Shown here: positions 7,546 to 25,109 of the stretch, one piece after another
Layout of the letters: each line of letters starts with the position of its first letter
How positions within the stretch are numbered: position 1 is the first letter of the stretch
NCBI GenBank assembly: GCA_951812775.1
Contig: OX638326.1
Coordinates: 694,335-758,334 of the forward strand
Direction of reading: 5' to 3'
Source: an uncultured Alphaproteobacteria bacterium
Lineage (GTDB): Bacteria > Pseudomonadota > Alphaproteobacteria > MPNO01 > UBA2964
DNA: 64,000 nucleotides
Position numbers and translations under genes: made by a program
The notes under the pieces: model-generated
What the model was told of the DNA's origin: nothing
What the model saw: the letters and a program-made list of their open reading frames with translations, nothing else
Databases searched by the model: none

Positions 7546-8298
7546 ATGAAAGCGGCATCAATACTCATTGCGATGATGGTTCTCGCGACCACCGTCATCG
7601 CAACTTCATTGACTCCGGCACAGGCGCAAAAACCTCGTCCGGTTTATTGTGAGAATAACGGCTTTGCCGTCCTGGCGGATAAGATCGCAAAGGCGCAGGA
7701 ATCAAACCTGCCCCCTGCCCTGATCGCCGCCGCTAAACGACGCTATGAACGTGCGCGGCGCTGGCGTATGCGGGCCCGGGCAGCCGAATGTGAAGGGTTG
7801 TTACGCAATGCGCTTGAAGATTTGCGACAGGCCCGAGCCGGCGTTGCTAAAAACACTGTCGGCATCCAGTGTGATACCGCAAATCTCGACCGTCTCGCCA
7901 AAGCGATCCGTAAAGGCCGAAAGGCTAAGCTAAACCATGCGCTGATCCGCTCCGTTCAGTCTCGCTATTTGATTTCCAGAAAACTGATGGCCCAGAACAA
8001 GCCCGAAAATTGTGCCCGACAAATTGCGATGGGTCTGCGGACCCTTAAAAAGGCCCATTCGACCCAAGCCGCCAAAGCCTTGGCACTAAGGCGCGGCGTG
8101 CAATGCAACGATAGCGGCTTTAGCGCCCTCAATGCCGAGATGCGCACCGCACGAATAGCCGACCTCGCCCCAAAGGCAATTAGTACTGCCAAAAAGCATT
8201 ATCGCAAGGCGCGTCGACTACGCCGGAAAAAGGATGCCACTGCCTGCGCGGATCAGCTCAATGCCGGTCTGAAGGCCATTCAAAACGCCCGCCAATAG
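7546..8298 (+). CDS. Secreted protein made of three Cys-bounded helical modules
   Basis: 250 residues. A signal peptide (residues 1-27, ending PAQA) is followed by three tandem modules of about 65-70 residues. Each has the pattern Cys-x(5)-F/L-x(2)-L, an amphipathic helix, RY-x(3)-R-x(4), a second Cys and a third helix ending L-x(2)-A. The module Cys are near YCENNG/ECEGLL, QCDTAN/NCARQI and QCNDSG/ACADQL. This suggests helical hairpins, each closed by one disulfide after export, and a very basic surface. I know no named domain matching it. It is adjacent and parallel to two other genes with the module. A function cannot be assigned. Confidence 0.7.
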   Translation: MKAASILIAMMVLATTVIATSLTPAQAQKPRPVYCENNGFAVLADKIAKAQESNLPPALIAAAKRRYERARRWRMRARAAECEGLLRNALEDLRQARAGVAKNTVGIQCDTANLDRLAKAIRKGRKAKLNHALIRSVQSRYLISRKLMAQNKPENCARQIAMGLRTLKKAHSTQAAKALALRRGVQCNDSGFSALNAEMRTARIADLAPKAISTAKKHYRKARRLRRKKDATACADQLNAGLKAIQNARQ

Positions 8299-14268: not shown

Positions 14269-17200
14269 TTAGAAGATGAAGTCGTCGGCATAAAGGCTGG
14301 TCTTCGAAATACCAACAAGAACGATGAAATCATCACTATCCAATTCAATTTCGGTATCATTACCATTCTGGTTCATGCCGTTGTCTATGAAGTCAGCCAA
14401 ATCTGCGTATTGGCCAGTTCCGGTGCCGATAAGGTCAAACACACTAACATCAAGCTTATCATCCGTGCCTTGGCCAGCGGTGAAATCTGCTAACGTTCCG
14501 TTTTTAATGGTATCCGTTGAACCATTGTTTTCGAAGACGAATAGGTCATCACCAGCTTGCCCCCTCAGCGTATCATTGCCAGCGCCACCCACAAGAATTT
14601 CGTCACCGGCACCGGCGATCATGTTGTCATTGCCGTCCTGTCCATAAAGCGTATCGGCGTCATTACCACTGACCATCAGATCGCCACCGTCGCCGCCGTA
14701 GAGAATATCACTACCGTTTTCGCCCCACATTGTATCATTTCCGGCGCCACCATAGAGAATATCGTCACCACTACCGGCAAAGACATAATCGGAATTCTCC
14801 CCGCCATACAACGTATCATCGCCGTTTTCACCTCTAAGCGTGTCGGCACCGCCACCACCATAAAGCGTGTCATTGTCACCACCGCCATAGATGGTGTCGT
14901 TGTTGTTCAGGCCATAGATGACATTAGCACCGCTGTCGCCGGTCAGGGTATCGTTGAAGTCTGATCCGATGAGGTTTTCGATATTTAAGATTGTATCGCC
15001 GGCTGCATGACCACCTGAATGAACGCTGGTATTGAGGTTTACAGTCACGCCTGCATCCGAATTCTGATAACTTGCGGTATCATTGAAGTCATTGGCGCCA
15101 TCACCGCCATCGATGGTATCCCCGCCAGCGCCACCCTCGATGGTGTTGTCATTATCATCACCGGTTTAGCGTATCTCCTGTGGTTGTATTATTAGAACCA
15201 ATGAGGTTCTCGATGCTTGCGAGCGTGTCGCCTGCAGCATCCCCGCCCGACGCCGTCGGGCCGCCAGAAGCACCCAGATCAATGGTGACGGCTGCAGTCG
15301 AGTTCGCGTAGCTTGCGGTATCGGAGCCATAACCGCCGTTCAGCATATCACCGCCCTCATCACCAATTAGAATATCATCTCCACCGCCGTCCGATAGAAC
15401 ATCGAAGCCTGACGTTCCTTGCAGGCTATCATTGCCGGCATAAAACACAGCGTCGTATGGTGTGTCGGTAATGGCGAGGGGGACATACCCTACTTCACTA
15501 GGGACATAACCTGACTGACCGAAGTCCAGTGTCCTATCCGCTGCTATGCCCGTCGTAATATCACCGACGCCGGGATAAAAAGGCTCGTTCCCCAAATTGG
15601 TATAAGTAACAGCATTTCCGTAATCGCTACCGTTAATTTTAAATTGTATGGTTTGGGCATCGACATCTACCAAGACTTCATAATCATAGGTTGAGCCATC
15701 GAGGTATTTCGTCAAACCGGACTGGACTATACCTGCTTCGGTATGAATAGAACCTTCGAACGGATTAATAACCACACGAGCCGTATTGTCGGCGTTAAAA
15801 ATACCATCCCAGACGCGTGGAGCATCAACGTCTGCTTTCCAAGCATATTTACCCGCATCTGGAAATTCTAAGGTTGCCAAAGTGACGGGCCAACCACTCG
15901 TGCTGCCAACGACCTTCAACCCACCTTCAGAGACAGTGTTCCCTGCTTGGACGTGATTATTGTCATCTATCACCGCAAAGGTGTCTTGAGGATTGTCCAC
16001 GAGCTGATCAGGATCACCCACGACATCTACATTGTTGCCCTTGCCGGAAACGTCATTGCCAAGAGTAGCCGTCGTTGAATCGTCAGCAAAATCGAGCCGA
16101 AAACCATTGTCGCCATAGGCTCCCTCATACTCCTTGCCAACCCAATTGTTATTGCTATCCCGTTGGCCAAAATCCGAAGCCACCTTTGTCTCTCCGTCGA
16201 GAAAATGGACATCCGCAATTCGGCCGTCACCAAAATAGTCACCTGAGGAAGCAGCGGTACGGCCAAAAATTGAATGTTCTATTGACGAGTCATTGATGCC
16301 AAATTTCTGATCTTCGGCTATATTAGGTGCCTTGTCCCAGGTATCAATCCTGTCACCATTGACATGTAACTGGACACGGTCCTCTGGGTTAGAATTGTCG
16401 GAGTCCCATGTCAAAACGACGTGGTACCATTCTGTCGTGGAGTCAAAGGCAGCCGCTGTCTCAAAAATATTTTCGTTACCATTCGATAAAATTAGGCGAT
16501 CAAGACCCGCTCCTGACGTATTTGAACCGGAAAAAAACAAGTTCATATAGCTCTCAGACGAATTTCCGTAGGACGTGGTATCCGCCAGGAATAACGGCAG
16601 ATTGGGCACGTCCAATCCAACTTCGTCTCGTTTTACCCAGGCAGAAAAGGTCCAGTTCTCCCGATCACCATCCTGATCTGGCGTGAAAGTAAGTTGTTCA
16701 CTATTGGTTTCGTCAAAATTGATCGAATTACCGATCAACGTCCCGCCATGTACGTCTTCTCCAACCCCAACAAGTACGGTCCCCGTAGAGGAAATGCCGA
16801 ACTCGTTAGTCACCGTGTAGGTAAAGCTGTCCTGCCCGACACTTGAACCCGAGGTATATTCATATGTACCGTCAACAAAGACCTTTACGGTCGCACCAGA
16901 CATCAAAGATTTTTCGTAGTAATTATCCCCGTTATGAACGGTTGTTTCGGTCTCCCCATCAATCGAATAGATCAGGTCGCCGAACCCTCCGGAACCAGTC
17001 AACTTCCATTCCGCTGTGGTTGAAACCGGCACTTCGATGAGGCTGTCGGCTGCGACAAGCGGATCGCCCCCTTCTATATAAGCGCCATCGCCGAACTCCA
17101 GGTTTTCGATGTTCGTGAGGACATCAGTGCCATCAGGGGATGAAGCCCGATCATCAACTACCGTGTATTCATCGGTAGTTGAATTGTAGGTGATCGTGTA

Positions 17201-19356
17201 ATCAGACTCGTTTCCACTAAATCGCGCCGTATCAATGCCAGCGCCGCCGTCGAGGGTGTCGCCGCCGCCATTGCCGATCAACAGATCATCACCGAGACCA
17301 CCGTCAATCGAATCCGCAGCGCCTGAATCTTCCAGACTATCGTTGCCATCAGTTGAAATGACGCCCGAAGCTGTCGTAACCGACCCATAACCCGCAGGCG
17401 AATTGGTCATCGTTGACACGTCAAGGTTAACGGTCCAGCTTGTGAGATCGTCTTTTGACATATCTCCGACAACTGGTGCCCAGGGCCCATCTCCGGAAAG
17501 ATCAAATCCATTCGTCCCGGCCACCGGATCAGCGCCGTTTTGCCATGTGCCGTTAATGTTGACGTACATTTGTTTGGTTTGGGTGTCCCAGGCGACTCCA
17601 ATCGTGTCACCAGAGGCAAAACTGCTTCCATAGGAGAAGCTAGTCTCGTCCTGATCTATGTCGCCGTCCAGCCCCCGATAATGAGCTCCTGTGCCTTGAT
17701 GAAACCCAGGCCACCAATGAGAATCTGTGGCATCAAATATTGAGGAGCCAAGGCCAATAACACCACCCACGCCAGTCACCATGCCTTCAAAATAATATTT
17801 ACCGGACAAGGGCACGACATCCGCCACGACCGATCCATAAATTGAATCAACCGGATCGTCTTCAGGCGTGTTCACCTGAATCGTGCCATTCGAGGTGTTG
17901 TTAAAACTGACCGTCAAATTCCCATTCGAGAGGGTTGCGCCGCTGCTTGAATTATTTAGGTCAATCGTTGCGAAACTCGGCGTTGATGGTCCACCTGTCA
18001 CCGGCTCCCCGACACCAACAAAAACTGTACCGGAGGATTCGATACCCGTGCTGCTGGTCACCGTATATTCAAAATCATCCTGTTTTTCTGTGGAAATTAC
18101 CGACGCATCATACTCATAAGTTCCATCTTCAAAGACACGTACGGTTGCACCCCCAGCTGTGCTTGTTTCGTAATAATCGCCGCCGTTGCTAACAGTGGTC
18201 TTGGATACGCCATCAATCGAATAGGTGAGATCGCCCTCTCCTCCGGAGCCGGTCAGCTTCCATTCAACTGTTCCTGAAAGCGAGACCTCGATGAGGCTGT
18301 CCGCGGCAGTGGGAAGGATGTCGGCGAGCTGAACCGTCTTGTCGCTAAATTTTAGTGTCTCAATATTGGTGAGGCTATCAGTACCATCTGTCGGCGAAGA
18401 TTGATTGTCTTCAACCTCCCATGTGTTGTCACTTGCGTCATATGCGACAGTGTAGTCAGCACGGTTGCCAGCATAGACCGCGGTATCATTGCCTGCCCCG
18501 CCGTCCAGGTCGTCATTTCCGCCATCAAGCGTATCAACACCGGAGCCACCTTCCAGACTGTCATTTCCGAGATCATCGCCCCCGGTCACCGTCTGCCCAA
18601 CACCAATACGAACTGTCGCCGTAATCGTGTACGTGCCGTCGGAAACGCTGTAATCGAAACTGTCCTGTCCGGCGTTCGAATGACCATAGTATTTATAAGT
18701 TCCGTCCTCATAAATCCTGATTGTCGCCCTTAAAGCCGTATCCGCTTCTTCCCAAGAAAGTCCGCCTTCAGTTCCTGACGCCGTCACAGTTCCCACTACC
18801 GAGTGGCTTAGTGTTCCTTCGCTGCCTGCCGTGGTCAGCTTCCATTCCGCCATTTCAGAAACCGGCACTTCGACGGCGCTGTCCAGTGCCGACAGAAGCG
18901 TAATTTCCTGATCCGTAAATCTCAGATGCTTGATATTGCTAAGCGTGTCAGTGCCATCCGGTGACCCAGATCTGATATCCGTTACTGTCCAAGTCCCTGA
19001 TCCGCTATTATACGTAATGCTGTAGTTCGAATGATCCCTGTCATATGTCGCGATATCATCGCCGGCGCCGCCGTCAAGCGTGTCGTTACCGAGGCTCCCA
19101 CGCAACCTGTCATCCCCCGCACACCATCGAGGTCATCGGCACCATCATCGCCGGTCAAGTGATCATCACCGGCTCCGCCTAAGAGAATATCGTTTCCGGA
19201 ACTGCCGATCACGCGGTCATTACCATCCCCACCATCGAGATAGTCATCACCACTATGGCCATCCAAGCGATCTTTGCCGTCATTACCATAAATCGTATGG
19301 GCGCCTGCGCCGATGCCATGCAGAATGTCGTCTCCATTACTTCCGTTAGTCGCCAT
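14269..19356 (-). pseudogene. Giant RTX calcium-binding protein with SPRY- and LamG-like modules, two frameshifts
   Basis: The frame starts at ATG 19356 (GGGAGAG ribosome site, MATNGSNGDDILHG) and ends at 14269, giving about 1,695 residues if two single-base indels are corrected. Indel 1 is near 19120-19126: inserting one G restores LDGGAGDDRLRGSLGND. Indel 2 is near 15160: removing one A from CTAAACC restores the repeat run. Order: RTX nonapeptides (GGxGxDxLxG); three copies of an about 100-residue cadherin-like domain (EVPVS...WKLT...G, DGTYEY, VGVGE), each next to more RTX repeats; a SPRY-like domain (SGKYYFEGMVTGVGG, VYVNINGTWQNG-type); a LamG-like domain (WTFSAWVKRD, WYHVVLTWD) followed by FRLDFADDS...LGNDVSGKGN; a second SPRY-like part; a final RTX block and the usual ADDFIF end. 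It would be secreted by type I export and fold with Ca2+. No ABC/HlyD secretion genes are in the window. Confidence 0.75.
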
Positions 19357-20303: not shown

Positions 20304-21434
20304 TCAGCTCTTTTTTATTCTCGCTGTCTGAAAACTATCGAGGTCCAAGGCCTCGCGAAAATAGGCGGTTCGCTCCTCTTTGGACCCTTCCACCTCAATA
20401 CCGATGGCATCCGCGACACGGTTGATCGCATTGAACAAAGCCGCTACCGCCGCGGCGTCAGTTGCCGCCGCCGGACTGCATTGCTTGGCTAAGGCAACCC
20501 GCGCAGCAGAAATAGCCTCTCGCTCACCGCCCACCACCGCCTCGGCAAAAGCAATGAACAACGACGCCTCAGCTATGTCGGCACCATCTTCGTCCCCCTT
20601 TACCGCTGACAGGTCAGGCTGATCCTTGTCGCTTTGCAGGCTCGCACGGAGCCTGTCTGTATGGCTGACCGTTCAGTAAAAACACCCGTTCAGGGAAGAA
20701 ACACGTCCTGCCACCAGTTCAATCTGTGCCTTTTCAATCGCGCGGGGGTTAACCTCAACCTGCCACATCGCTTCGGGCGGCAGATACTGCACATCATTGA
20801 GACCAAAAAAGCTGATCGCCTCGCGCGGCACCAAACTCATCGCGCGGCGCACATTGGGCGCGTTAGGCGCATCACCGACATCGCTCGGGTAAATTCTTTG
20901 CAGCTCGCCGCTGGCCTTTTCCGGTGGCACGGTCGGCAACCACGCGACATCGACCGATGCCCCTTCTGACCGATTACGGGTCGGCTCGCCTGGCTGCGGC
21001 TCTGGCAACGCATGGCGTTCCACACCAATGCCGTCACAGAATGTATCGACGCACATCGTATGAGCCAGAACCGATACCATTTCGACATATTCGGTATCGG
21101 GCACACCGCCATCGAGCACAGACAGCACCCAGCTCTCGGTCAGGCGCGCCGGGTCGGTGGCAATCCGATGAATGGCTTCGACGATGTTCTCCGGAAGCGC
21201 GCCAAGGCTATCATGCGTTCCCTGAACGGCGTTGGGGGACAAAGCCTGTTTTCGTTGCTGGCAAAGAGAGCACCCGGCTGCATTCCGGGTCTCGGCGGCA
21301 ATCGCCACCCGCGTTTTGCCATCCAGCCAGGTGCCCGGCGCTGCTATATGCGCCCAGGCGCGACGATGGGCGGCTGTGATGTCGTCACGGATCGGAATGG
21401 GCGCGTTGTTGTATGAAACGTCGGTGCCAGCCAT
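20304..21434 (-). CDS. Double AhpD-like (CMD domain) selenoprotein with Cys-x-x-Sec active site
   Basis: Reading TGA at 20673-20675 as selenocysteine gives 376 residues in one frame; conventional calling splits it into 253- and 85-residue pieces. The N-terminal half has an AhpD-like CxxC (AAGCSLCQQRK, Cys55/Cys58). The C-terminal half has SSLNGCFY-U-TVSHTDRL, with Cys251, Sec254 and His258: exactly the CxxC-x(3)-H active site of AhpD/carboxymuconolactone-decarboxylase-like peroxidases with the second Cys as UGA. The frame stays open and protein-like for 122 more codons, to TGA at 20304. A hairpin of bacterial SECIS type follows the UGA (see 20637-20655). The expected role is a thiol/selenol peroxidase or disulfide reductase. 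The start ATG has GAGG 7 bases upstream. The selenocysteine machinery is not in the window. Confidence 0.88.
20637..20655 (-). promoter_or_regulatory. Bacterial SECIS hairpin for UGA recoding
   Basis: In the mRNA, 17 bases after the UGA, CAGGCUC pairs perfectly with GAGCCUG (7 bp) around a five-base loop CGUGC. The UGA-to-loop distance is 24 bases, inside the 16-37 range known for bacterial SECIS elements. The loop has G at its second position followed by U, as the bacterial consensus requires for SelB binding. Seen directly; SelB binding is inference. Confidence 0.8.
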
Positions 21435-21510: not shown

Positions 21511-22170
21511 TCAGGCGCGTCTGCGCCGCATCGCACCGATGCCCAGCAAGCCAAACCCAAAGACGATCAAGGTCCCCGGTTCCGGTAACTCTGCAAGGGC
21601 AGAATGCATGGTAAAGACCCGTACATAGTCGCCCGGTGAAGCCGCCGTCCAATTGACGTTGAGCCGCGTGGAGTCACTGCCATCAATGGACACGACATCA
21701 CCAGCTTCAAGACCCCGCAATGTCGGGTTTTCGTATGTCACCCCGGTATTGGCAAGAAAATCACTGTTATTCAGGTTGGCGGTCGATGTCGCAACGCCGT
21801 AAATATCCGCATCAAACAGGATATAACCAGTCTGGGTCGTTCCCGTGGACAATGGGTCGAAGAAAATATAGTGGCTCGCCACTACCTGACCGGCCGTCGG
21901 GCTCGTTCCGATATCGACAGCGACAGTACTCGTGAGGACAATGTTCTGTTCCTCGTTAAACCCGTAAAGATGAGGTGTCTGAAAATTATCGTCACCAACG
22001 GTATTGGTGGGTGTTGAAGAACTAAAAGGTACTGTCAGATTTATAAAAGTCCCGCCGAGGTCCAATGCAGAACCACCGGTCACCGCACCACTGATGATCG
22101 TTGCCTGTGCGGGGAAAATCGCGAAACACAATACAATCGCGGCAACAACAAGGCGGGGAAAACGCATCAT
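21511..22170 (-). CDS. PEP-CTERM sorting-domain protein
   Basis: 219 residues: Sec signal peptide (LVVAAIVLCFAIFPAQA), a beta-rich mature domain of unknown fold, and a classic C-terminal sorting signal, LPEPGTLIVFGFGLLGIGAM followed by RRRRA. The signal directs export, exosortase processing and probably surface or extracellular-matrix placement. It lies 55 bp downstream of the beta-helix PEP-CTERM gene on the same strand and is likely the last gene of a three-gene operon. No catalytic motif is visible. Confidence 0.8.
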   Translation of the reverse strand: MMRFPRLVVAAIVLCFAIFPAQATIISGAVTGGSALDLGGTFINLTVPFSSSTPTNTVGDDNFQTPHLYGFNEEQNIVLTSTVAVDIGTSPTAGQVVASHYIFFDPLSTGTTQTGYILFDADIYGVATSTANLNNSDFLANTGVTYENPTLRGLEAGDVVSIDGSDSTRLNVNWTAASPGDYVRVFTMHSALAELPEPGTLIVFGFGLLGIGAMRRRRA

Positions 22171-22225: not shown

Positions 22226-24109
22226 TCATATGAGAAAAGCACATTTTTTGCCAAAGTGGCGTACCATAACAACAACTAGGATTCCGCTGATCAAGACGAG
22301 GAGCGTTCCCGGCTCCGGCACCTGGCTGGACACCACTTCAAGCCGCACTGAGCTTCGGCCATTGCCCAGATCATGCAACGACATGTTCCAGCCGAGATTT
22401 GCCGCCAGCGCGGCGTCAGAGAAATCGAATATCCACGAGTCAAAATCGACGACATTGATTGTGTCTGCGACCAGCAGGTCAAACGTATCGCCCAACCCAG
22501 CCAAGAAACCGGCAAAGAAATCGATATCAAAGATTGCCCCATCGGCAATCGTGGCAATGCCTTCGATTGCGCCGCCCGTTCCGACGTCATCGGTGACATC
22601 AATGACGTCATAGCCGCCAAGCTCAACGCCCGGTGTCAGGCCCGCGAGCTCAAACAGGGTCGTCAAGGACACGCCAAGATCGAGATTACCCATGATGTTC
22701 AGCAGCCCTGGAGAATTGCCTGCGCTGACGCTAGCACCACTATTGACCGCAACATCACCTTCCAGCGTGCCGTTCAGGGAGATGTTAGCGCCTGACTCAA
22801 TTACCACGTGTTCAAAATTCGAAATGACATTGCTGGCGATCGTCCCGCTGGTATTGCGGAAGGTTACAACATCATGGCCACCGGCACCGCCATCCATACT
22901 GGTAACGCCCGAGAAACCGGCACCATCGAAGGTCAATGTATCAGCGCCATTACTGAGATTGATGCCGCCCGTAATCGTACCACCGCTGGTAACTAAAACG
23001 GCATCCTGTTGGGCGCCCATATCGATATTACCGACAAAAGTGCCGCCCGCGACAGAGAGCGTATCCTGACCGCCCCGCGCAAAGACATCACCCGTTATAC
23101 TCCCGCCAGCATTGACCGTCAGGACCTCGCCCGTGCCATCACCAAGTGATATTCCGCCCGTGATACTGCCGCCATTTTCGACGGTCACCGCCGCCTCGAA
23201 ATCACCCGCCATGGTCATCGTAGCACCGGCACCGATATTGAGCGCTTCAAAACCAGTCAACTTGCTGTTCGTCACCTCGCCGGAGACATTGCGAAATGTC
23301 AGCGTATCAGTTCCAGTCCCGCCATCGAAATTCGTTACAGCGGAAAAGTCTCCGCCATTGAAGGTCAGGCTGTCACTGCCATCGCCAAGATTTATCACGC
23401 CGGTAACGCTGGCGCCGGAATTTACAATAACCGTTGAGTCACTCTCATTGTTGATGATCGCTGTTCCCTGTGAGCTGCTGACATCCGCCCCGGTATTCAA
23501 GGTGACATTGATCATCTCACCAGCAACCGCGTATGCCTGAATAGCCGCGCCGGTACCGCCGGTAACGACACCGCTCACCGTGACAGAAGTTGTCCCCGTG
23601 CCGCTATTGACCGCTTCAATCCCTCTAAAACCGCCATTAATGTTTACCGCATTGATGGTAATGGCTGAATTGTCGGAAACGTCCTCGGCTTGAATGCCGT
23701 GATTACTGACGCCGGTGACCGTCCCAGTCGTGGTAATGACGATCCCGCCACCTGACTCGTTGCGAACACGGACGCCGCGGTTGTGGCCACTAATCGTGGC
23801 ATTATGGTTGTCGACAAAGGAGGCGCCGCCCGTACCAATAATATTGAACCCGTTTGACGTCGTATCCAGACCGAACCCGGCAGTGGTACTCATATTAACA
23901 ACGATACCTGGAAAGAGAGGCGCCGCAAGCCCGCCATTGGTGGCATCGGTCCCCGCATTGGCCGCTCCGGAACAGCTGAAGGTGCCAACGACACCGCCAA
24001 CGATGCAGACCCCCGACGCAGCTGGTTTACCACCAGCCAGAATGACCAACAGCGTCGCGAGTGCCTGCCAGATCGACCGGACATACAGGTTATTTAGCAT
24101 AGAACTCAC
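22226..24109 (-). CDS. Autotransporter-passenger-like beta-helix protein with PEP-CTERM end
   Basis: 627 residues. After a signal-like N-terminus (WQALATLLVILAGG) comes a long run of Gly/Thr/Ser/Asn-rich repeats of the right-handed beta-helix type (ITINAVNINGGFRGIEAV, repeated LGDGSDSLTFNGG-type turns). Then comes a segment typical of the end of autotransporter passengers (SPGLLNIMGNLDLG...YDVIDVTDDV). The expected outer-membrane barrel is absent. The protein instead ends with PEP-CTERM: VPEPGTLLVLISGILVVVMV and a basic tail. The start may be GTG 24109 (GTGA overlap with the upstream stop) or ATG 24100. A second gene of the same plan is at 29049-30651. It is likely anchored by the exosortase system. 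Confidence 0.75.
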   Translation of the reverse strand: MSSMLNNLYVRSIWQALATLLVILAGGKPAASGVCIVGGVVGTFSCSGAANAGTDATNGGLAAPLFPGIVVNMSTTAGFGLDTTSNGFNIIGTGGASFVDNHNATISGHNRGVRVRNESGGGIVITTTGTVTGVSNHGIQAEDVSDNSAITINAVNINGGFRGIEAVNSGTGTTSVTVSGVVTGGTGAAIQAYAVAGEMINVTLNTGADVSSSQGTAIINNESDSTVIVNSGASVTGVINLGDGSDSLTFNGGDFSAVTNFDGGTGTDTLTFRNVSGEVTNSKLTGFEALNIGAGATMTMAGDFEAAVTVENGGSITGGISLGDGTGEVLTVNAGGSITGDVFARGGQDTLSVAGGTFVGNIDMGAQQDAVLVTSGGTITGGINLSNGADTLTFDGAGFSGVTSMDGGAGGHDVVTFRNTSGTIASNVISNFEHVVIESGANISLNGTLEGDVAVNSGASVSAGNSPGLLNIMGNLDLGVSLTTLFELAGLTPGVELGGYDVIDVTDDVGTGGAIEGIATIADGAIFDIDFFAGFLAGLGDTFDLLVADTINVVDFDSWIFDFSDAALAANLGWNMSLHDLGNGRSSVRLEVVSSQVPEPGTLLVLISGILVVVMVRHFGKKCAFLI

Positions 24110-24960
24110 ATACCCGACGAAAACGGGTATTTCATCCGCCGACGAATAAAGCCCAGCGCAAAAACACCGAAGCCAAACACAGCCAGCGGTCCCGGCTCCC
24201 GAACATGACCAGCAATATTATCCAACTGTCCACCGGCGCCGAGGAACGATGTCCAGACAGCGTTCCAGTTATTGACATTGTCGGCATCCGTCGCGGCGGC
24301 ATTCAGGCCCATATTGAGACCGGTGAGCCCGGCGACTTCCTGAAAGGCCGTTTCGAGCACCGCATCGGCCCAGGACACGGTTGCCTCGCCCTGGCCACCA
24401 TTGGCGGTGAAATCCATATCGACCTTGAGCCGCAGCCAGTTATCCGTTGTTACGAGGTTTGAGAGCGTGATTGCTGTTGCGGTACCCGTTGCGTCGAAGA
24501 ATCGAAGTCGATCCTGATTACGATCGGCAATAAGGACCATGCCTTTCTCATTGGCCTCATTTCGGCAAATTTTTCCGTTGCCACTCTGGTCATCGCCGAG
24601 TCCGACTTCGGTACCCCAGAAACTGGTCCTGAGATCGACTTGGAAAGAGGCGCTGGTTGCGACGCTGGAATAGTTAGGCAACGAGAAATTGGCATCATTG
24701 ACGTGCGTCGCGACAACTTCGTTACCGGCACTTGACGGCACACAGCAGATCGCCTGACTGCCATCCGGTCCAATGCCGGCTTGCACCTCGATATCCTGAC
24801 AGGTGCCGTGTTTGGCGGTCACCCAGCCTTGCTGCCCATTCAGGTCTCCGGGTGTAAGTGAATTAAAATCATAGATGACAGCGGCTCTGGCACTCATCGA
24901 GACATACCCGATGCACAACATCACCAGCAAGTATTTCAGCAATAAAATCTGGGCTTTCAC
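24106..24960 (-). CDS. PEP-CTERM-like secreted protein, probably a lectin-fold domain
   Basis: 284 residues from GTG 24960, chosen because AGGGAGAG lies 7 bases ahead and the signal peptide (LLLKYLLVMLCIGYVSMSARA) then starts at once. The mature part begins VIYDFNSLTPGDLNGQQGW, a common opening of concanavalin-like secreted domains, with paired Cys (TCQDIEV; ICCVPSS). The C-terminus is REPGPLAVFGFGVFALGF with RRR, a PEP-CTERM variant with REPG in place of PEPG, then an unusual 10-residue extension. It is the first gene of a three-gene PEP-CTERM operon; its stop overlaps the next start. Confidence 0.7.
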   Translation of the reverse strand: MKAQILLLKYLLVMLCIGYVSMSARAAVIYDFNSLTPGDLNGQQGWVTAKHGTCQDIEVQAGIGPDGSQAICCVPSSAGNEVVATHVNDANFSLPNYSSVATSASFQVDLRTSFWGTEVGLGDDQSGNGKICRNEANEKGMVLIADRNQDRLRFFDATGTATAITLSNLVTTDNWLRLKVDMDFTANGGQGEATVSWADAVLETAFQEVAGLTGLNMGLNAAATDADNVNNWNAVWTSFLGAGGQLDNIAGHVREPGPLAVFGFGVFALGFIRRRMKYPFSSGM

Positions 24961-25109
24961 CTTTTCTCTCCCTTGTTTTTCTTCTGCCACCCCCAAGCCC
25001 CCCCCGGTGGCAGCCAGAAACTAGCGGGAATCGGTGCGCGCCCGCGTCATCCGAACGGGTGATATTGACGAATAAAAAAGGGGGCGTGGAACGAGGGAAG
25101 TTGCGCGGG

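Follow-up and report, generated by a model that had tools for sequence, protein, structure and literature searches.

Table 11 gene calling leaves two separate pieces on the reverse strand of the window (the whole stretch of 64,000 nucleotides analysed here), the first of which ends at a TGA at codon 254. The locus therefore raises the question of whether it holds a gene broken by a stop codon or one selenoprotein gene in which the TGA is read as selenocysteine (Sec). A preliminary description had joined the two open frames into one gene broken only by the TGA, had placed this codon at the second Cys position of an AhpD-like CxxC motif, and had named a hairpin just downstream as its SECIS element. 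In this study, we report that the window gene is very probably a real selenoprotein of family NF041238, which looks broken by a stop but would make one redox enzyme. This high confidence covers the selenoprotein assignment, and the proposed peroxide chemistry is graded separately below.

Reading frame and conservation at the TGA

Translation with TGA as U gave a single gene of 376 codons with exactly one in-frame TGA, in the context LNGCFYUTVSH. The terminal stop of the gene, at 20306-20304 (-), is also TGA. The union of the two frames was confirmed with exact coordinates, both the frame and the similarity continuing downstream of codon 254. For annotation, the consequence is that taking this TGA as a stop splits an AhpD-related gene in two. 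The features of the locus and of the Sec machinery are listed in Table 1.

Table 1. Features of the AhpD-related gene, its recoding element and the Sec-related genes of the genome (window positions where so marked; all other positions are on the single contig of the genome, C1, or on locus L017)
Feature	Location	Strand	Remarks
AhpD-related selenoprotein gene (NF041238), predicted	window 20304..21434	-	376 aa including one Sec; own stop is TGA
In-frame TGA, putative selenocysteine 254, context CFYUTVSH	window 20673..20675 (read 20675-20673)	-	TGA in 61/61 aligned homologues
Putative bacterial SECIS hairpin CAGGCTC-CGTGC-GAGCCTG	window 20637..20655	-	7-bp stem; loop CGUGC at 20648-20644
Predicted catalytic motif E239-x11-C251-x-Y253-U254-x3-H258, C-terminal half	window 20661..20720	-	E, C, U and H invariant; Y in 60/61
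First-half C55-x-x-C58, without a following His	window 21261..21272	-	Cys55 in 55/61, Cys58 in 56/61
selC	C1:3246515-3246606		67.6 bits, over the Rfam cut-off
selB	3246687-3248564		468 bits, over the curated cut-off
selA-like ORF, 474 aa	overlaps selB start		recognised by reading the ORF and by position, not by family search
selD	3188058		307 bits, over the curated cut-off; away from the selC-selB-selA locus
Deiodinase-like gene, in-frame TGA in SYTUPPFR	L017:12038-12712 = G000:C1:3250037-3250711	-	adjoins selA; second selenoprotein family in the genome
Prx-like (AhpC/TSA) gene, in-frame TGA in HWUPYC	L017:12823-13287 = G000:C1:3250822-3251286	+	in the sel locus of this genome; adjoins the deiodinase-like gene

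In a protein search over 143 relatives, homologues spanning the full length turned up in many genera, and almost every one had a single TGA. In a set of 385 genomes from the class, all 48 matches listed over the NF041238 cut-off had exactly one. Sixty-one full-length homologues, from many genera and down to 27% identity, were aligned. TGA254, Cys251, Thr255, His258 and Glu239 were invariant, and Tyr253 was found in 60 of the 61. The position claimed for the codon was borne out, since TGA stands in CxxU, Cys251 precedes it and His258 follows it in 61/61 homologues. Homologues ending at the TGA, or with neither Cys nor Sec at this position, had been named beforehand as the observation that would speak against the proposal. 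None of the 61 stopped there and all read on beyond it; all carried TGA, and Cys was found in this column neither among them nor among the 48 matches listed over the cut-off in the class. One copy in a relative seemed free of the stop and was considered as a possible Cys form, but its sequence departs from the others shortly before the motif, close to the end of a contig, and it says nothing on this point.

That standard gene calling ends at codon 254 would be expected if the TGA were a genuine stop codon or had arisen by a sequencing error, leaving a pseudogene or a 253-residue first part only, but the same codon is TGA throughout the alignment, across many genera and at identities as low as 27%. 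Moreover, the protein is conserved beyond the TGA (H258, R339, G345 and R360 in the 61 homologues), and in orthologues synonymous changes outnumber non-synonymous ones downstream of it (55 v 25 and 49 v 28 codons). We consider a true stop or an error to be highly improbable.

This genome holds two AhpD-related copies, at 714641 and 3868421, neither of them at the sel locus, and the second paralogue (G000:C1:3868421-3869506) is 48% identical and has one in-frame TGA. An unusual expansion of the family was observed in five genomes of the same order, with 5-6 matches per genome, most of them with TGA. Elsewhere, a contig search of related genomes returned two same-genus orthologues only, 398 genomes sampled from the phylum yielded only the copies of the window genome itself, and tblastn against plasmids gave no match.

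Selenocysteine machinery and the SECIS hairpin

The genome (4.149 Mb, single contig) was searched for selA, selB, selC and selD, a check proposed in the preliminary description, and all four were present, selA as a selA-like ORF; selC, selB and selA are grouped in one locus. Absence of this machinery from the genome was the other observation named beforehand as speaking against the proposal. A tRNA-Gln(ttg) of 97 nt reported by ARAGORN at window 8132-8228 (-) was rejected as a selC candidate; its anticodon is TTG, Rfam gave nothing there, and it is probably false. The AhpD-related family was found in 28 of 42 selB-positive relatives versus 1 of 101 selB-negative ones (Fisher p 3e-18, a value overstated because related genomes are not independent), and the sole selB-negative genome with a family gene is an assembly that is 67% complete.

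The hairpin lies where it had been described, its stem beginning 17 nt and its loop 24 nt after the TGA, with G at loop position 2, and it is conserved across homologues. Folded alone, it forms part of the minimum-energy structure, with a z of -1.5 against shuffles that is only mildly better, so that the hairpin in one sequence alone is not decisive. Judged from the aligned genes, the hairpin is constrained at the RNA level well beyond chance. Leu262 is encoded by CTC in 60/61 homologues, whereas elsewhere in these genes CTC accounts for 27% of Leu codons; Arg263 is CGT in 58/61, against 10% of Arg codons. The inner-stem columns are almost invariant, and 85% of stem cells are paired versus 45% or less in slid controls. 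For the outer pairs, 16 double-change cells were counted versus 6.0 in shuffles, one slid control reaching 14, and the covariation of the outer stem suggested by these sequences is moderate. RNAalifold on the alignment retained just the three innermost pairs, which suggests that the outer stem is variable in length. An Rfam scan of the SECIS region gave nothing meaningful.

The residue inserted at UGA is not told by sequence alone, and a general suppressor placing, for example, Trp at this codon would also produce a full-length protein; however, the complete sel machinery and the near-exclusive occurrence of the family with selB speak against such a reading, as do the SECIS-like hairpin under RNA-level constraint and the location of UGA at the second Cys position of AhpD. 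TGA is moreover the terminal stop of this very gene, so that UGA keeps its stop function in other positions. Insertion of another residue is in our judgement scarcely credible, and decoding as Sec is preferred: SelB with Sec-tRNA, acting on the hairpin just downstream, would decode UGA254 as Sec, as the machinery and the element suggest.

No in-frame TGA interrupts the formate dehydrogenase gene of this genome, and that enzyme is therefore not the reason that the Sec system is kept. The AhpD-related family is a good candidate for that reason, being UGA-only in the sampled genomes, multicopy in some, nearly constantly accompanied by selB, and neighboured by a Prx-like selenoprotein gene in some relatives.

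Family identity, gene neighbours and predicted chemistry

The window protein matched NF041238 at 445.4 bits (cut-off 175) over model positions 1-356 of 357, with the motif context CFYUT at 251-255. This family, AhpD_rel_CFYUT, is the AhpD-related CxxU protein formerly called 'hypothetical protein 1' of the Sargasso Sea selenoproteome (2026 review, PMC13188914). It was first seen in that selenoproteome in 2005 (PMC1088965), at which time it was given neither a COG nor a Pfam domain. The family is thus already described and catalogued by NCBI, and the window gene is a new member and not a new kind. The literature cited on the family (PMC1088965, PMC13188914) gives no function for it. Scores against the canonical AhpD model TIGR00777 (18.1 bits, cut-off 191.95) and the peroxidase-related AhpD-like model TIGR01926 (42.6 bits, cut-off 81.8) were below threshold, and the CMD domain PF02627 barely reached its gathering cut-off (23 v 23 bits) in the C-terminal half.

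Seven genomes, from two related families, have a gene for a Prx-like selenoprotein (HWUPFCRRQ or similar; PF00578) at 38-196 nt downstream of the AhpD-related gene and in the same orientation; two of the seven then have a deiodinase-like selenoprotein gene (SYTUPPFR; PF00837) after it. In five genomes of another family, the downstream gene was recognised by reading its sequence as thioredoxin-reductase-like. No such linkage to a Prx-like gene exists for the window copy; the gene that comes after it encodes a beta-carbonic anhydrase, in an order conserved in two same-genus genomes. A pair of Prx-like and AhpD-like genes has previously been found on one marine read, with a different AhpD-like family (PMC2398784).

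Several other observations were made around these loci. In one relative, the Prx-like gene downstream of the family gene has two consecutive in-frame TGAs at the active site (GHUUPFC), which could be a double Sec or an assembly error. Near the sel locus of this genome lies a CMD-family-like ORF (L017:13344-13889, +), by eye without CxxC. PEP-CTERM-like C-termini were noticed in window ORFs 21511-22170 (a PF07589 match), 22226-24109 and 24106-24996 (-), the latter two by eye. A large protein with RTX-type calcium-binding repeats and bacterial Ig-like domains is encoded at window 15158-19105 (-), and in one relative the orthologous locus is likewise followed by a large protein of similar type.

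By analogy with AhpD, the Sec254 selenolate would be the nucleophile, activated by a Glu/His relay, and may reduce a hydroperoxide or the oxidised centre of a partner. Cys251 would then resolve the selenenic form to a selenenylsulfide, which would be reduced by a thiol system. The neighbour genes of relatives suggest the Prx-like UxxC selenoprotein and the thioredoxin-reductase-like protein as candidate partners. In mycobacteria, AhpD serves AhpC. In the published AhpD scheme, a sulfenic acid is followed by a disulfide with a nearby Cys (PMC4674687). The first half of the window protein has the normal CxxC (Cys55/Cys58) noted at the outset, where a resolving or electron-relay role had been suggested for it, and this motif is conserved in most homologues. 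It is lost in a small divergent clade that retains Sec, and hence the Sec site does not depend on it in every member; it may be an auxiliary or structural site.

The same Sec protein of AhpD fold might instead be a thiol-disulfide or dehalogenase-like reductase acting on an organic substrate and not in peroxide defence. The CMD/AhpD fold covers varied chemistry, with the debrominase Bmp8 among the fold matches (Z 13.1), and some relatives carry several divergent paralogues in a single genome, which points to different substrates; yet the proton relay described for AhpD-like peroxidases (PMC4674687) has its match in the invariant E/C/Y/U/H set, and Prx-like and thioredoxin-reductase-like genes are neighbours in relatives. 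We regard a reductase of this type as possible but rather doubtful, and peroxide chemistry by the Sec enzyme, as argued by analogy, as somewhat probable. The latter reading gives a concrete, testable two-selenoprotein peroxide pathway.

Predicted fold and comparison with known proteins

An AlphaFold2 model built with 43 family members (pLDDT 91.8, pTM 0.93) predicts that the chain forms two helical, AhpD-like halves packed against each other as a pseudo-dimer; a single-sequence model of the N-terminal half alone was poor (pLDDT 41) and was left out. The C-terminal half matched the AhpD-like structures 6k40, 2oyo and 2prr (Z about 14.5), and the best whole-chain fold match was human Sestrin2 (Z 16.9, rmsd 3.2 A over 239 residues, model 1 to 347), on which Foldseek superposition was poor (rmsd about 15 A). 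Profile comparison of the halves aligned C55-x-x-C58 with C251-x-x-U254, but support for this was weak (probability 39%, pairwise E 3e-4). The two AhpD/CMD-like halves proposed from the sequence are accordingly supported by the model and the Sestrin2 match, and weakly by sequence.

Sestrin2 is twofold pseudo-symmetric, for which duplication of an AhpD-like monomer has been suggested, and has its active site in the N-terminal half, with a relay of Tyr127, His132 and His113 and a single Cys (PMC4674687). In the predicted model, as in Sestrin2, a single chain holds two AhpD-like halves that are similarly arranged; identity is about 12%. However, the active half of the window protein would be the C-terminal one, with CxxU, and Y253, H258 and E239 correspond to Tyr127, His132 and His113. 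The Sestrin-type layout of an active N-half and a degenerate C-half was thus not found, the E/C/U/H set being in the C-terminal half. A sequence profile search of the PDB did not find Sestrin, so the relation is one of predicted fold only. It is unlikely that the family is a bacterial counterpart of Sestrin, arisen by intramolecular AhpD duplication and with a Sec catalytic half serving a Prx-like selenoprotein; if true, the Sestrin-peroxiredoxin relation would have in it a possible prokaryotic model or a distant relative. As a structural lead, the double architecture of Sestrin2 type is useful and, with the neighbour selenoproteins, among the parts that specialists may find useful.

Among selenoproteins of marine metagenomes, AhpD-like 1 (COG2128) and AhpD-like 2 (PF02627) share CxxU in an AhpD/CMD domain with the window protein (PMC2398784), but are catalogued as families separate from hypothetical protein 1. 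With NF041238 itself the full-length match, CxxU and SECIS are the same, and nothing sets the window protein apart. With Mycobacterium tuberculosis AhpD and the AhpD-like proteins 2prr, 6k40 and 2oyo, it shares the predicted fold and E-x11-C-x-Y-C/U-x3-H in the C-terminal half, whereas it differs from them in the putative Sec in place of the second Cys and in its extra N-terminal AhpD-like half.
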